The notes beneath the pieces were generated by a model that worked only from the letters and a program-made list of their open reading frames with translations, had not been told where the DNA came from and ran no database searches. Source: Bacteroidales bacterium (lineage in GTDB: Bacteria > Bacteroidota > Bacteroidia > Bacteroidales > UBA932). From it: a stretch of 6,199 bases of DNA. The DNA lies in NCBI GenBank assembly GCA_017429885.1, contig JAFROA010000226.1, positions 1-6,199 of the forward strand. The letters run 5' to 3'. Position numbers and translations under genes: made by a program. Below are positions 1-5,773 of the stretch, piece by piece (the first letter of the stretch is position 1; each line of letters begins with the position of its first letter).

Positions 1-366
1 GCAACCGTCTCCACCTCCGGAGTCGTCACCGCCAAATCCGCCGGCTCCGCCACCATCACTTGCACCACCGAGGATGGCTCAAAGAAAGCCACATGTGCGG
101 TGACGGTCAGTGCGGCAACGGTTTCTGTAACTGGTGTATCGTTGGATAAGACTTCATTGAGTCTTGAGGAAGGCAAGACCTCTACCATTACGGCGACGGT
201 CTCGCCCTCCAACGCCACCAATAAGGCCGTAACCTGGTCTTCCAGCAATACATCCGTCGCAACCGTCTCCACCTCCGGAGTCGTCACCGCCAAATCCGCC
301 GGCTCCGCCACCATCACCTGCACCACAGAGGATGGAGCGAAGAAAGCCACCTGTGCGGTAACTGTA
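1..366 (+). repeat. 258-bp tandem repeat encoding Ig-like (Big_2) modules
   Basis: The segment starting at base 1 recurs at base 259, giving an 86-codon period. The first 59 bases of the two copies are identical. The next 49 bases differ at 9 positions, mostly third codon positions. Further copies probably lie upstream of the window. The pattern suggests recent duplication or gene conversion of Ig modules. Confidence 0.85.
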
Positions 367-963
367 ACAGGTGCAACAACAGGAACCGAGAACGGACATG
401 CATGGGTTGATCTTGGTTTACCCTCCGGAACAAAGTGGGCTACATGCAATATTGGTGCTTCAAAACCAGAAGAAAGTGGGAGTTTCTTTGCTTGGGGCGA
501 AACTTCAACGAAAAATGATTATAGTTGGAGCAGATACAAGTGGTGTAAAGGTTCCTATTTCCAGCTTACGAAATATTGTAAGAGTTCAGGATATGGAACT
601 CCTGATGGCAAAACTACGTTAGATTCAAGCGATGATGCTGCTATTGTTAATTGGGGTGGATCATGGCGCACACCATCAAATACTCAAATGAACGAACTTA
701 TTAATTATTGTAATTGGAAGCAGGATTCTGAAAATGGTATAGATGGTTATTTGGTTACCAGCAAAGTCAATGGGAATAGTATATTCTTGCCTTCAGTAGG
801 GTATTATATGGGAAAGACTTTTTCAAGTGGCTATAGAAGTTATTGGACTTCATATACTGAAGGTATGGGTGGTGCGAATTGCCTTTATTATTCTGGAACA
901 ACTATTAAGATCGGCTCTCAAGATAGAGCCTATGGGTTACCTGTTCGTGCTGTTATTAAATGA
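1..963 (+). CDS. Big_2-like Ig repeat protein with C-terminal FISUMP-type domain (5' end outside window)
   Basis: The frame is open from base 1, so the true start lies upstream and the ATG at base 100 is internal. The 320 visible residues begin inside one Ig-like repeat (ATVSTSGVVTAKSAGSATIT). A complete Big_2-like repeat follows at about residues 42-123, with the typical 'SLDKTSLSLEEGKTSTI' opening and 'AVTWSSSNTSVATV' core. From about residue 132 to the end there is a domain of the Fibrobacter succinogenes major paralogue type: GHAWVDLGLPSGTKWATCNIGA, GSFFAWGET, WGGSWRTPS, YWTSYTE and a closing GLPVRAVIK. Such proteins are normally exported or surface-exposed in Bacteroidetes, and the domain is thought to bind a ligand, but its function is unknown. 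In this phylum the combination often sits on larger receptors, so a missing kinase or lipoprotein N-terminus is possible. The Ig part is GC-rich and the FISUMP part clearly AT-richer, which suggests domain shuffling. Confidence 0.85.
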   Translation, partial: ATVSTSGVVTAKSAGSATITCTTEDGSKKATCAVTVSAATVSVTGVSLDKTSLSLEEGKTSTITATVSPSNATNKAVTWSSSNTSVATVSTSGVVTAKSAGSATITCTTEDGAKKATCAVTVTGATTGTENGHAWVDLGLPSGTKWATCNIGASKPEESGSFFAWGETSTKNDYSWSRYKWCKGSYFQLTKYCKSSGYGTPDGKTTLDSSDDAAIVNWGGSWRTPSNTQMNELINYCNWKQDSENGIDGYLVTSKVNGNSIFLPSVGYYMGKTFSSGYRSYWTSYTEGMGGANCLYYSGTTIKIGSQDRAYGLPVRAVIK

Positions 964-978
964 CAAACATATTATCAC

Positions 979-1521
979 ATGGAACAATTAGAATCAACGC
1001 AATGGCTTGAAATGTATTTAGAAAGAAAACTCTCACAAAATGTCTCACTCGATAATTCTAGATACAAAGAGGTGAGAAACTTTATGCTTCTTTGGAATAT
1101 CTTTGAACGAGTATTTCTTAATAATAATGCTAATGCCGGGAGGGTATGGAATATTCAGAACGAAATTGTACCATGCCGAAAAGATCTTGATCATTATTAT
1201 TCTTTTCTTATAAAAGAGTATGTAGAAGAAGTAAGTTTTAAGAAACTGAATTTTGATTATAAGGTAGACGGTAGAATGCCAGAACATCAGTATGGGAAGG
1301 ATGTCTTTGAGAGATTAAGGAAAGAAACCCCGTCAGAGGCAGAAAAGAAACAAGTATGTCTAATGGTATTATGGCGCTACAGAAATAACCTGTTTCATGG
1401 AGGTAAGGAAATCTCAAATATCTGGAAACAGGGAAACATATTCTTAGAGGCTAATAGGTTCTTGGTTAGTCTTCTTTCGCAAAAAACAGGAGTATCATTA
1501 CATTATGAAGTTGATAAATAG
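979..1521 (+). CDS. Putative HEPN-domain ribonuclease-like protein
   Basis: This 180-aa protein appears all-helical, and I do not recognise a named family for it. Residues 131-143 read LWRYRNNLFHGGK, with R135 and H140 forming the R-N-x3-H motif that is the active site of many HEPN RNases. The helix around residues 35-47 (FMLLWNIFERVFL) resembles the first HEPN helix. HEPN proteins are typically RNA-cleaving toxins or effectors of toxin-antitoxin, abortive-infection and CRISPR systems; here that role is inferred from the motif and neighbours. There is no signal peptide or membrane segment, so it should act in the cytoplasm. The start lies 15 bp after the preceding stop with no visible Shine-Dalgarno sequence, as is usual in Bacteroidetes. 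The next internal ATG (1012) would remove 11 residues. The gene is AT-rich compared with the kinase downstream, and the following gene starts 17 bp after its stop, so the cassette is probably one transcript. Confidence 0.7.
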   Translation: MEQLESTQWLEMYLERKLSQNVSLDNSRYKEVRNFMLLWNIFERVFLNNNANAGRVWNIQNEIVPCRKDLDHYYSFLIKEYVEEVSFKKLNFDYKVDGRMPEHQYGKDVFERLRKETPSEAEKKQVCLMVLWRYRNNLFHGGKEISNIWKQGNIFLEANRFLVSLLSQKTGVSLHYEVDK

Positions 1522-1538
1522 ATGATATTGGATTTGAT

Positions 1539-2264
1539 ATGGGCTTAATAGACAGTAAGTTCCGGAGGGCTCGTTTGGATCAGTCGCCTTGGTTGTTCCA
1601 TTTTATTAATGGGAAAGATAGTGATCCTTTTAATACATTGAAAAAGATTCTGGAAGAAAAAAAGTTGATTAGTAGTAAAGGATATATTTGTTTTTCAGCT
1701 TCACCTCTTACTGCGATTACCAAGTTCTTTAAGGTTAAATCTACATCTACAAACAAACCTATGTACTATCCTTATGGGCTAGGCTTTTCTAGGGATCGAA
1801 TGGTGAGTGATTTTGGTACAAGGAATGTCATTTATTATGGTTCTGGCGAGAAAGATAATATCTCAGATTGTTTATTATGGCGTTCTGAACAACTCGTTAT
1901 TGATAATTATGACTTTGAATATCTAAGGGAATGGAGAATTAAAGGTAACGAGTTTGATTTTTCTTCTTTTCCTGTGGAAGATATCGTTATTGTTGCCCCC
2001 AGTCAAGACGAACTGAATGCTTTGTTTGTAGAAGAGAATATAGAATTTACACCTATCATTGACTATATCAATGAAGATATTGAGCCTGATTGGACTGATA
2101 TATACACTCGGAAATGGAAAGGGATTGCGGTGGATAGAATTGGTAACGAATATTTAGATGACTATGCCCTTTCTTCATCTATAATCGGTCAGGTAATAGG
2201 GGAAGACATGGAGGATAAGTTGTTTCAGGTGTCACCATTATATGTTAGCGGTAAAAAGAGATAA
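1539..2264 (+). CDS. DUF2971/AbiGi-like protein of the HEPN cassette
   Basis: This 241-aa, probably cytoplasmic protein has the motif order I associate with DUF2971 and AbiGi-type proteins. The N-terminus reads 'WLFHFI', then 'LKKILEEKKLISSKGYICFSAS' (residues 34-54). It continues with 'YYPYGLGFSRD' (76-86), 'RNVIYYGSG' (95-103), 'LLWRSEQL' (112-119), 'YLREWR' (128-133) and 'EDIVIVAPSQDELN' (147-160). The arrangement (aromatic-H-F/Y-T/I start, C-F-S after a turn, G-x-GFSRD, later REWR) also appears in the following AbiGi-like gene, so the two are probably distant paralogues. The biochemical activity is unknown. The layout vaguely recalls ADP-ribosyltransferase-type folds such as DarT, but that is speculation. 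It lies 17 bp after the HEPN gene and 29 bp before the next gene, consistent with an operon. No signal peptide or membrane segment is seen. The label is from memory of the family, not a search. Confidence 0.6.
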   Translation: MGLIDSKFRRARLDQSPWLFHFINGKDSDPFNTLKKILEEKKLISSKGYICFSASPLTAITKFFKVKSTSTNKPMYYPYGLGFSRDRMVSDFGTRNVIYYGSGEKDNISDCLLWRSEQLVIDNYDFEYLREWRIKGNEFDFSSFPVEDIVIVAPSQDELNALFVEENIEFTPIIDYINEDIEPDWTDIYTRKWKGIAVDRIGNEYLDDYALSSSIIGQVIGEDMEDKLFQVSPLYVSGKKR

Positions 2265-2293
2265 GTTTTATTTATTCTAAGGATGATAGCCAA

Positions 2294-3009
2294 ATGCATA
2301 GAATATATAGTGACTCTATTTTCCATTATACGGATTGTGAGGACGCATTAGTCGGGATATTAGAAAAAGGCTTTCAAGTGAGATGTTGTAAGGAACAGTT
2401 TATTGATCCTGCTGGTCATTATGCTTATATAGATATTCCTCTGGTGAGTTTCTGTGATATCCCTCTCAATTGTATTCAATACATAACATATGGTGGATAC
2501 GCTATTGGGTTGAGTAGGGCATGGGCTAATGAAGCGAAACTGGCTCCTGTTTCTTATTATTTAAATGCAAGAAAACTTTTTCTAATCAATCAATGCGAAA
2601 AGCATATGAAGAGTATATGAACAGCAAGACAAAAGACTCTCGAAGGATTCTAGCTTACATGAAACCAATGCGAAAGTATAAAGATGGTAATTATGGTGTG
2701 AAAACTCTTTCTAATGGGAAACAGATTGTTTTGCGGAGAGATAATTACATAGAGAGAGAATGGCGGAAAGCCTATCTTTCCCGATGGGACCAAGGAGATT
2801 ATTATTTGAACAAGCCAAGCTACGTAACCTTTAAAAGTGAAGATGTGTCATTTATTATAGTCCAGGAAAGCGGGGAGAGGAGTAGCATAATATCAAGAAT
2901 AAAAGAGTTAACAATGGTCGGTGGTAGAAACACTTCACCTTCGGGAAATGATATTGAGAGTTTAATATCTAAGGTTTTAACGATAGGCGAGATAAAGAAG
3001 AACTTTTAG
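2294..3009 (+). pseudogene. AbiGi-type abortive infection gene, split by a frameshift
   Basis: Two overlapping frames together make one AbiGi-type protein of about 238 residues. The first frame (2294-2620, 108 aa) carries the N-terminal hallmarks: SIFHYTDCEDALVGILEKGF, PLVSFCDIPL, YGGYAIGLSRAW and APVSYY. It then runs into an unrelated tail and stops. The second frame, usable from about 2533 and with its first ATG at 2593, carries the rest, including YMKPMRKYK and YIEREWRKAY, matching the late EREWR motif of the family. A one-base loss in the T run at 2577-2581 would explain the split. Adding one T reads continuously as NARKLFSNQSMRKAYEEYMNSK. AbiGi is described as the antitoxin-side partner of a lactococcal abortive-infection pair with the AbiGii nucleotidyltransferase; no AbiGii gene is seen here, and the neighbour is a HEPN-like protein instead. 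AAGGA at 2279-2283, 10 nt before the ATG, could be a ribosome site. No classic slippery heptamer is visible, so mutation or sequencing error is more likely than programmed shifting. Confidence 0.7.
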
Positions 3010-3196
3010 ATGTCCTCCGATTGTTTCTTTGATAGAAGAGAAGGATAAGGTGTTACATCATCCGTGTTTATTGTGCATGAATGGGGTCTGGATAGGTTTC
3101 TGGTGATCAAGGCCTGGGGCGTGTTTTCCTATCTTGTGCGAGAGAAGAGAGTTGCCAGAGATGTTTGGCGGAAATTGTTGAGAATGAAATAAATAT
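3010..3196 (+). other. Intergenic region upstream of the kinase, with a 42-codon open frame
   Basis: This 187-bp gap marks the change from the AT-rich cassette to the GC-richer kinase gene. A short frame from GTG 3064 to TAA 3190-3192 encodes about 42 residues (VFIVHEWGLDRFLV... ending WRKLLRMK) and stops 4 bp before the kinase ATG. It could be a leader peptide, the remnant of a gene cut by insertion of the cassette, or chance. No convincing TAnnTTTG promoter was found; TAGGTTTC around 3094 is only a partial match. Confidence 0.3.
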
Positions 3197-5503
3197 ATGA
3201 AACTGGAAGAAGGTGAGATAATCCAGTCCCGTTACAGGCTGGTGTCGCTGAAGGGCCGTGGATCTTTCGGTGAGGTGTGGCTGGCGAAGGACGAGCAGAC
3301 GGACATGGATGTGGCTGTCAAGGTGTATATTGCCTTGGATGACAAGGGATTGGAGGAGTTCAAGGCGGAGTACAAGAACTCATATTCCCTTAACCATCCG
3401 AACCTTCTGCACGCCTATTACTTCGATGTGGTGGACCGGCAGCCTTTCCTCGTGATGCCGTATTGCCCGGACTCGGCGGAGTCACTGGTCGGGAATACCG
3501 ATGAAAAGACGCTGCTTCGGTTCATCCGGGATGTCGCCTCTGGCCTGGAGTACCTTCATGCCAGGGACATTATTCACCGTGACATCAAACCGGACAACAT
3601 CCTGGTGAACCAGGAGGGAAACTTCGTGGTGACTGACTTCGGGGTGAGTTCGAAGATGAAGAGCACTCTGCGTCGCAACTCTACCCGTGCGATGGCTGGG
3701 GCTGATGTGGCCGGGACGATCGGGTACATGGCTCCGGAACTGTTCTCCCGCAACCCGGACGCTGTCAAGGCCACGGACATCTGGGCGCTCGGCGCGACGG
3801 TATTTGAGATGGCTTCCGGGGAGATGCCGTTTTTCGGCCAGGGTGGTGCTCTGCTCCTGCGGGGGGCGGATATTCCAGAATTGAGAGGGGAGTGGTCGGA
3901 AGGCTTCCGGAATATCGTCGATGCCTGCCTCGCCCGTGACACTTGGGACAGGCCGACGGCGGCGAGACTTGCTGGGTGGGCGAATGATTTGCTGAATGGT
4001 CGGCCGGTATCACTCCAAAAGTCAGTAGCGCCAGTAGTTGATAATTCTTCCACGGTCAGGATCCAGACACCGCCGGAGGAACCGCAGACGTCTCCCGTCG
4101 TGGTATCCGATAAGAAACCTGCTCTTTCTGTCCATACTGTTGTCGGTAATGATGCGTCTGAGAAGCCAAAGAAATCTTCTTTTAGCAAGATACTCCTTGT
4201 TGTTGCTATTATTGCCGGGTTGGGGGGACTGATTAAAGTCGCAATGACGCCTAAGTTGGGAAAGTCCAATGTAATTGAAAAATCCGCAGAAGACTTTAAG
4301 CTTCCGATAGGCAATAACATTTACCACGGCGTAGCTTATCTAAACGGAGGTAAGTCGGTTAAAATAAAGAAGATAGAACTTGATTTCGGGACAAAGGAGG
4401 GCAAGATCTATTATAGTGATAAACCTCTTTTCCTGGACATTGAGGCAAGTTCTGAGACTTCGAAGACTAAATTGATAATTAAGGAGACAAATCCCGATAT
4501 GAAAGCCTTATCCAGTTTAGGCGAGAAGGTGTCAAGTATCTATGAGGGAGTCATCAATGCGGACGAAAGTATTACGGGCAGTGGGAAGAACTGGAAAGGA
4601 GAGGATTTCTCTTTTGTCTTTTTCCCGGGAGAGGCGAAGGAGAAAATCGAAGCTGAACCTGTTACTCAAGTAGGTGAGAAGGCTTCTCCGTCCAAAACTA
4701 AGGAGCAGGCAAAACAAACTCCTGCACCATCACCTAGAGTCAAAGCTGAAAAATCTTCTTCGAGTACAGCATCTCCATATCTGAACAAGACAAGTCTTGA
4801 ACTAGAGGTTGGCGAATCCTTTGACCTTGTGGTGTTCGGCTGGGAAGGTGAGGTTACATGGGAATCTCACTATCCATTAGTCGCATCAGTCAATGGAAGT
4901 GGCCATGTCTTTGGCAGGAATAAAGGGGAGACGAAGATCGTTGTTACGGTTGGAGCGACTAAGTTGTTTTGCGACGTGTCTGTGAAGTCAAGCAGTAAGA
5001 AAGTCTCAGATGCGAATGTTTTTGAGCAGAAGTCTATTAGTATTCCATTGGGAAAGAGTGTGCAACTCACTTTTGATAGTGCCTATGGCACTGTTAAATG
5101 GCGTTCTATATCTCCAGAAGTTGTATCGGTCTCTTCTTCCGGTGTAGCGACGGCCTTGTCTATCGGTGAGGCAAAAGTCTGGGGAGAGGGGTATAATGGG
5201 AAAATCCAGTATACGGTTACAGTTGTTCCGGCCTATCCATCACAGAGTCAATCAAATGGTAAGAGAACTGTTTCAGGTTATGTGCGTGATCCATCCGGGG
5301 CTCCTATCGTAGGGGCAGTGGTCATGGTTAAAGGAACGACTAACGGCTCTATGACTGATGCGAAAGGGGTGTATTCAATCAAGGCTGCATCTGGTGAAAC
5401 CCTTGTGTTCTCATGTATTGGCTATCAGGATATTACCAAGACTGTCGGGAACGAGAGCTGCATGGATGTGATCTTGCCTCAGGGTAAGAGCAAGCGCCGT
5501 TGA
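3197..5503 (+). CDS. Transmembrane Hanks-type Ser/Thr protein kinase with Ig-like and CarboxypepD_reg-like domains
   Basis: This 768-aa protein should phosphorylate Ser/Thr residues on cytoplasmic targets in response to a periplasmic or envelope signal. The kinase domain spans about residues 13-267 with all key motifs: glycine loop GRGSFGEVW (20-28), VAVK with K42, a likely alpha-C glutamate (E54 or E58), HRDIKPDN (127-134), DFG (147-149), GTIGYMAPE (173-181), DIWALG (194-199) and the late Arg (R252). It therefore looks active and is of the RD type, with S/T residues in the activation loop (T157, S162, T163). A Pro/Ser-rich linker leads to one membrane segment at about 332-350, with lysines on its N-terminal side placing the kinase inside. 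Outside follow an unrecognised beta-rich region (about 361-480), a Lys/Pro/Ser linker, two Big_2-like domains (about 528-597 and 605-677) and a CarboxypepD_reg-like domain (about 690-765; VSGYVRDPSGAPIVGAVVMVKGT). The kinase part is GC-rich and the remainder drifts to lower GC, again suggesting a modular gene. No Shine-Dalgarno sequence precedes the ATG. Confidence 0.92.
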   Translation: MKLEEGEIIQSRYRLVSLKGRGSFGEVWLAKDEQTDMDVAVKVYIALDDKGLEEFKAEYKNSYSLNHPNLLHAYYFDVVDRQPFLVMPYCPDSAESLVGNTDEKTLLRFIRDVASGLEYLHARDIIHRDIKPDNILVNQEGNFVVTDFGVSSKMKSTLRRNSTRAMAGADVAGTIGYMAPELFSRNPDAVKATDIWALGATVFEMASGEMPFFGQGGALLLRGADIPELRGEWSEGFRNIVDACLARDTWDRPTAARLAGWANDLLNGRPVSLQKSVAPVVDNSSTVRIQTPPEEPQTSPVVVSDKKPALSVHTVVGNDASEKPKKSSFSKILLVVAIIAGLGGLIKVAMTPKLGKSNVIEKSAEDFKLPIGNNIYHGVAYLNGGKSVKIKKIELDFGTKEGKIYYSDKPLFLDIEASSETSKTKLIIKETNPDMKALSSLGEKVSSIYEGVINADESITGSGKNWKGEDFSFVFFPGEAKEKIEAEPVTQVGEKASPSKTKEQAKQTPAPSPRVKAEKSSSSTASPYLNKTSLELEVGESFDLVVFGWEGEVTWESHYPLVASVNGSGHVFGRNKGETKIVVTVGATKLFCDVSVKSSSKKVSDANVFEQKSISIPLGKSVQLTFDSAYGTVKWRSISPEVVSVSSSGVATALSIGEAKVWGEGYNGKIQYTVTVVPAYPSQSQSNGKRTVSGYVRDPSGAPIVGAVVMVKGTTNGSMTDAKGVYSIKAASGETLVFSCIGYQDITKTVGNESCMDVILPQGKSKRR

Positions 5504-5722: not shown

Positions 5723-5755
5723 GATCAAGATTCTTCGCTTCGCTCAGAATGACAC
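5723..5755 (-). repeat. Copy of the dispersed 'VILSEAKNL' intergenic repeat
   Basis: The stretch contains ATTCTTCGCTTCGCTCAGAA, whose reverse complement belongs to the familiar TCATTCTGAGCGAAGCGAAG class of repeat found scattered in many bacterial genomes. When translated it yields spurious peptides such as VILSEAKNL, which is what a minus-strand frame through 5511-5765 shows here. The ends ATTCT and AGAAT can pair as a small hairpin. It is not a gene; its role is unknown. Confidence 0.65.
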
Positions 5756-5773
5756 TAAAGCCCATATAAATAA

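Follow-up and report, generated by a model that had tools for sequence, protein, structure and literature searches.

The window analysed here is an entire 6,199-bp contig (C181) of a Bacteroidales bacterium, from an assembly in 466 contigs that is 68% complete. On its + strand, which also bears all of its main open reading frames (ORFs), lie three closely spaced genes: a predicted HEPN ribonuclease (gene 1), a sister of the AbiGi family (gene 2) and a broken AbiGi gene (gene 3). A first-pass annotation had proposed that these genes form a new three-part design in which a HEPN ribonuclease is coupled to two AbiGi-like partners. With moderate confidence, we favor a different interpretation, in which the three genes are independent, low-GC defence cargo occupying a variable slot rather than a conserved three-part system. 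The ORFs and their frames, the residue conservation, the contents of the slot and the lack of linkage among the loci examined are direct observations.

The arrangement of the genes is as first described. Gene 1 (979..1521, + strand, 180 amino acids) is followed after 17 bp by gene 2 (1539..2264, +, 241 amino acids), and the AbiGi reading frame starts at 2294, 29 bp past gene 2. The proposed three-gene design itself did not survive comparison with other genomes, in which the genes show no conserved linkage, an outcome that the first-pass annotation had itself named as refuting. A profile search found a relative of gene 2 or AbiGi in 0 of the 21 other loci that carry a gene 1 relative, and the HEPN gene was absent from 15 other AbiGi loci and from 4 other gene 2 loci, with one locus (G192) included in both counts. 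Outside the window, every locus matched by both the gene 2 and the AbiGi profiles was matched through a single ORF. The flanks covered in these comparisons measure about 1.5-8 kb, some being cut near the gene (L007, L020, L024), and one AbiGi locus (L045) was viewed over just 1.7 kb. Eight plasmid loci bearing gene 1 relatives, which stand outside the 21-locus count, likewise have no AbiGi in their annotation. Among 393 genomes of the order, the window's own included, matches were found to the HEPN gene in 3, to gene 2 in 4 and to AbiGi in 14, and only the window's genome matched both the HEPN gene and gene 2; gene 2 was found in none of 249 other genomes of the family and genus. A conserved cassette was therefore rejected, and because none of the other places examined has all three genes side by side, the trio is likely to be a loose set of swappable parts. 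The genes could still represent a true three-gene defence system, rare or fast-evolving, that was missed because its close relatives sit on short metagenome contigs. The tight gene spacing is compatible with this possibility, as are three gene 1 relatives (43-62% identity) outside the loci examined, whose longest contigs are 3-11 kb. We regard it as quite improbable, given the lack of linkage in every examined locus outside the window, a relative in which this slot pairs a HEPN gene with other partners, and the broken third gene.

A Big_2-repeat gene on one side and a kinase gene on the other border the slot, whose contents vary within an otherwise conserved kinase locus. On the left it is flanked by the C-terminal part of a large surface-protein-type gene, entered at the contig start (1..963, +; Pfam Big_2, E 2.3e-25). 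The boundary on this side is blurred because the 3' part of the Big_2 gene diverges gradually. Window positions 119-500 are 88% identical to one genome of the same genus (G599, L094), and positions 1-791 are 77% identical to another (G809, L112). The right flank (3071..4008, +) is 90% identical to G599 and 91% identical to G809. This kinase-side DNA matches 8 of 205 same-genus genomes, with identity of at least 90% in three of them, namely the window's own, G599 and G809. The slot is closed by a Ser/Thr kinase gene with kinase, Big_2 and CarboxypepD_reg domains (3197..5503, +; Pfam Pkinase, E 1.4e-43), whose G599 relative is 62% identical across residues 1-684. Between these flanks, the window contains genes 1 and 2 and the broken AbiGi; G599 contains four ORFs of 139, 107, 139 and 168 amino acids with no Pfam match; and G809 contains a 228-amino-acid protein with a strongly hydrophobic start together with a protein of the HEPN family that shares 29% identity with gene 1 (E 1.3e-36). 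The window is AT-rich at about 600-3,200, with a GC fraction of 0.33-0.39, compared to 0.54-0.62 at the start of the kinase gene; further into that gene the values are 0.42-0.49.

Of this locus, the window covers just the slot, with the end of the Big_2 gene on one side and the kinase on the other. In G599 the order of genes is ZnR/FHA, FHA-kinase, FHA/trypsin, a small gene, PP2C, kinase, Sel1, two Big_2 genes, the slot and the closing kinase; G809 follows the same order, its first gene being placed by DNA alignment alone. Domains were scanned solely on the paralogous contig of the window's genome, C153 (L096). The locus recurs within the genus, at L096 (G000:C153), L093/L094 (G599), L111/L112 (G809), L095 (G494) and L116 (G570), with a ZnR/FHA protein, FHA-kinase, FHA-trypsin, PP2C and further kinases, and with Sel1 and Big_2 genes in several of the genomes. 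This setting raises the alternative that the kinase/PP2C/FHA locus has the HEPN gene as one of its outputs, such that phosphorylation signalling controls the effectors encoded in the slot. HEPN-family genes occupying the same slot in two genomes, though just 29% identical, would be in keeping with such a role, as would the presence of an AbiGi inside the paralogous C153 locus. We nonetheless consider it unlikely: G599 possesses the kinase locus but has no HEPN match genome-wide at E 0.001, the HEPN gene of G570 is on a different contig from the kinase locus examined, and inspection by eye revealed no such kinase locus beside HEPN relatives from other groups.

Gene 1 belongs to a broad, uncatalogued family of HEPN type. 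The R135-N-N-L-F-H140 motif noted in the first-pass annotation is present, and all 22 sequences of the family alignment, which extends down to 19% identity, share R135, N136, H140 and G141, so the R-N-x3-H motif reflects more than chance. E43 is also invariant (22/22). A scripted search with the strict motif pattern identified it in nine of ten further members, one of which (from G570) has C in place of N after the R; the tenth retains R-N-x3-H in a looser form. The HEPN superfamily motif, as given in passages of PMC3710099, is Rx4-6H with a polar residue following the R, and R135-N136-x3-H140 conforms to it in all 22 sequences. The structure model of gene 1 is confident and all-helical, and it places R135 and H140 within one helix (residues 120-140) rather than far apart. 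Conservation of both residues, combined with this model, indicates that gene 1 is likely a HEPN ribonuclease, its fold being predicted and its activity presumed.

Other comparisons bear on the alternative that gene 1 is not a HEPN protein and that its motif arose coincidentally in another helical fold. In a VIA structure comparison with the gene 1 model, the solved HEPN toxins 8xdj and 8yuf occupied rows 2 and 3 and AbiV row 8, while RasGAP ranked first and the structural Z was weak. None of the libraries scanned (Pfam, NCBIfam, PADLOC), nor any PDB sequence search, supplied a HEPN name; Pfam HEPN matches numbered 0 among the 22 family members, and the NCBIfam and PADLOC scans covered the window protein alone. 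The PDB sequence searches yielded nothing useful, Foldseek searches gave no significant match, and hhalign of the gene 1 family against a 5-row alignment of Apea, the sole HEPN family compared, gave no match. HEPN families differ widely, so a missing profile link does not exclude gene 1 from the superfamily. We give the coincidental motif little credence, in view of the invariant R, N, H and E43, the all-helical model, the HEPN toxins and AbiV in the structure comparison, and family contexts with ABC-ATPase and restriction-modification genes, as listed for HEPN. A viral or phage origin of gene 1 was rejected; one viral contig held a relative and no phage record did.

The neighbours of gene 1 family members vary between genomes. 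In three proteobacterial loci, an AAA_13-type ATPase gene is directly upstream of the HEPN gene, forming a pair that resembles a split RloC/PrrC (L017:5324-8447, L018:5387-8510, L119:1311-4465). The domain was scanned in L017 and L119 and assigned in L018 by the 93% identity of its ATPase to that of L017; the L119 ATPase is 36% identical to the latter. L119 is a Pannonibacter plasmid on which the two genes overlap by 4 bp, and the L017 ATPase matches the PADLOC candidate PDC-S06 (E 3e-233). Of ten plasmid records with gene 1 relatives, eight were viewed. Annotated RelE/Xre, DUF262, GIY-YIG, Shedu or Lit genes lie within 4 kb in five of these (L119, L120, L124, L125, L126) and in none of the other three (L121, L122, L123), although L123 has an AAA ATPase downstream; in L124 the HEPN ORF differs from the annotated gene. 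Elsewhere, a type I specificity subunit and a DUF262-type protein (L009), a TIR-type protein (L016) and a methyltransferase (L017) are nearby. Ten neighbour proteins were scanned with PADLOC overall: those from L020, L013 and L011 gave no match, and a Wadjet system suspected by eye beside the L019 HEPN gene was discarded after two of its proteins were scanned without a match. In L005, L006 and L014, the HEPN-family genes sit among what we take to be housekeeping-type genes; at L006:6715-9388, the HEPN-family gene and a small gene are located between genes presumed to encode ribosomal proteins S10 and L3. Two genomes unrelated to each other have, as judged by eye, serine-recombinase-like ORFs beside their HEPN gene (L012:7568-7948, L016:7519-7962). 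A HEPN gene also follows a repetitive surface-type gene in G570, at a distance of 57 bp from a BACON/LRR gene, and in Alistipes (L005), 19 bp after a gene presumably of LRR type. One gene separates the HEPN gene from the repetitive Big_2 gene in G809, and no repetitive surface-type gene was seen before the HEPN gene in G231 and G347.

Gene 2, which is intact in the window, had been annotated as a DUF2971/AbiGi-type protein. It has no match in Pfam, PADLOC, NCBIfam or PHROGs, and the assignment holds only in the sense that gene 2 represents a sister family of AbiGi lying below the Pfam AbiGi cut-off. Comparison of the gene 2 profile (A4) with the AbiGi profile (A5) gave a probability of 95.8 (E 6.5e-9, 79 columns), with A4 including a bridging protein from G192; the gene 2 sequence by itself reached a probability of just 14. 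In the bridging protein, one ORF matches both the gene 2 profile (E 6.8e-7) and PF10899 (E 1.4e-14). When the model of gene 2 was submitted to the VIA structure comparison, DarT occupied rows 1-4, and 44 of the 50 rows listed hold what we take to be ADP-ribosyltransferase (ART)-fold enzymes. The top ranking of DarT ADP-ribosyltransferases makes an ART fold likely for gene 2 and, by extension, for AbiGi. Candidate residues for an ARTD-type H-Y-E active site, H21, Y76 and E131, are conserved in 65, 64 and 66 of 66 sequences and fall in strands 18-24, 76-84 and 131-135. Relatedness to DarT at the sequence level was discarded for both gene 2 and AbiGi, as none appeared by profile comparison; hhalign of gene 2 against a 7-row DarT alignment gave a probability of 0.1. 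A viral or phage origin of gene 2 was also set aside, no relative being confirmed in viral contigs or present in phage records. Judging by title, no publication was found that joins AbiG, ADP-ribosyltransferase and DarT, in a search that left most subscription journals outside, and nothing relevant was found on DUF2971, nor anything of use on FISUMP or Cryptobacteroides in connection with defence. Distant gene 2 relatives adjoin SLFN_AlbA_2 proteins at L025:6618-8222 and L026:2042-4394.

Gene 3 was correctly recognized as AbiGi-type, since it matches PF10899, but it is split over two frames and is not a second complete protein. The N-terminal piece (2294..2620, +; PF10899, E 1.1e-12) covers columns 6-98 of the AbiGi profile, and the C-terminal piece, in a different frame (2593..3009, +; PADLOC AbiGi, E 1.1e-5), covers columns 130-256, which indicates one AbiGi gene broken in this assembly. 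The former carries the conserved H and Y, the latter the EREWR motif and the candidate E; with these residues on separate pieces, gene 3 is probably inactive. The break may belong to the organism or to the assembly. The match of gene 3 within its own genome has one internal TGA, and programmed frameshifting was set aside after inspection by eye, with no clear slippery site.

A second, intact AbiGi is encoded on C153 in the same genome (L096:5726-6448, - strand; PF10899, E 4e-6), between the Sel1 and Big_2 genes of the paralogous kinase locus, and at the corresponding position G599 and G809 show a 12-bp gap. A Fic-domain gene is near this AbiGi (L096:1763-3283). In another genus, an AbiGi gene is directly followed by a BspA-type LRR and Big_2 gene (L055:3562-7114), as on C153; in both places, small defence-type genes are next to repetitive surface-type genes. 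The first-pass annotation had singled out the absence of AbiGii. No AbiGii-type match was indeed found when seven window ORFs were scanned with Pfam and NCBIfam, but the absence is not peculiar to the window, as no AbiGii was found by Pfam among 16 neighbours, a subset of the total, scanned across 14 other AbiGi loci. Viewed more widely, neighbours in these 14 loci vary. They include an Eco57I-type methylase on one side of AbiGi and a protein weakly matching PglZ on the other, in a BREX-like setting (L053:503-7004), a putAbiC-domain protein (E 1.4e-10) and a weak SIR2-like match (L056:2201-5178), a KAP NTPase (L054), methylases (L051, L052), an endonuclease (L050) and, elsewhere, non-defence genes. 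On an E. coli plasmid, AbiGi precedes a 403-amino-acid protein without a Pfam AbiGii match. Passages of the literature on AbiG contained no description of an AbiGi mechanism. In one screen described in part of PMC3985639, neither lactococcal abiGi nor abiGii was toxic in E. coli when cloned on its own, and an AbiGi enzyme would thus need a trigger or a target from its own host.

The predicted ART fold of gene 2 raises the further alternative of a modification-type toxin-antitoxin pair, in which gene 2 ADP-ribosylates and silences the HEPN protein as MntA AMPylates HepT, the broken AbiGi being a decaying second copy. Genes 1 and 2 are adjacent on one strand, the MntA/HepT precedent is described in PMC7641770, and PMC3710099, in the portion consulted, places HEPN genes of the pEK499_p136-like family beside ART-like and Macro genes. 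This pairing appears quite unlikely to us, as gene 2 is missing from all 21 other HEPN loci, the HEPN gene is missing from all four other gene 2 loci, and a Parabacteroides plasmid carries gene 2 by itself where a run of conjugation genes ends. Very improbable is the extended version, in which both the AbiGi family and its sister consist of DarT-like ADP-ribosyltransferases and gene 2 silences HEPN with ADP-ribose, as a counterpart of the AMP-based HEPN/MNT switch housed in an exchangeable slot of the kinase locus.

If the three genes are independent cargo, as we favor, gene 1 would be a HEPN ribonuclease effector working alone, cutting RNA independently of metal at a site made up of R135 and H140. 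It would be kept inactive until infection and would then cut host or phage RNA. Family members would be coupled to different sensors in each genome, for example to the RloC/PrrC-like ATPase of the three proteobacterial loci. Gene 2 would be a DarT-like, NAD-dependent enzyme that ADP-ribosylates a target, and slot contents may plausibly be exchanged through recombination in the repetitive Big_2 gene. The HEPN and ART folds in this model are predictions, and the enzymatic activities, the defence role and the exchange route are presumed.

Downstream of the kinase gene, the window ends in a winged-helix ORF truncated by the contig end (5870..6199, +), with a weak match to the AbiEi_2 antitoxin (E 0.012). 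A dispersed short repeat of 27-30 bp is present at 5727-5756 and also in L093 and L112 and three times in L096.

With the three-part design set aside, three elements are left: a HEPN-type family so far uncatalogued, the predicted fold of the AbiGi group, and the variable slot within the conserved kinase locus. The HEPN-type family, found in several defence neighbourhoods, is a candidate for defence catalogues; the predicted relation of AbiGi to an ART-fold family makes its biochemistry directly testable; and the slot is a place to seek further small defence genes in the genus.

The genes can be compared with known systems. Gene 2 would resemble DarT of DarTG only in how it is predicted to work, as it has no sequence-profile match to DarT and no macrodomain match was found in the window ORFs scanned. 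The Lactococcus AbiG system pairs AbiGi with AbiGii; the gene 3 pieces match AbiGi and gene 2 is its sister, whereas the window is without AbiGii, its AbiGi is broken and its HEPN neighbour is not conserved. Like the HEPN/MNT (HepT-MntA) systems, gene 1 is a solo small protein of HEPN type, with 8xdj and 8yuf among its highest structural matches, but no nucleotidyltransferase match was found among the seven window ORFs scanned. In the RloC and PrrC anticodon nucleases, an ABC-ATPase is fused to a HEPN nuclease, according to passages of PMC3710099. Gene 1, in contrast, is a separate small protein without a fusion, in a window without such an ATPase. Its family nonetheless shares with RloC and PrrC the R-x4-H motif described for HEPN in that same portion of PMC3710099, and in L017, L018 and L119 its members are encoded directly downstream of an AAA_13 ATPase.
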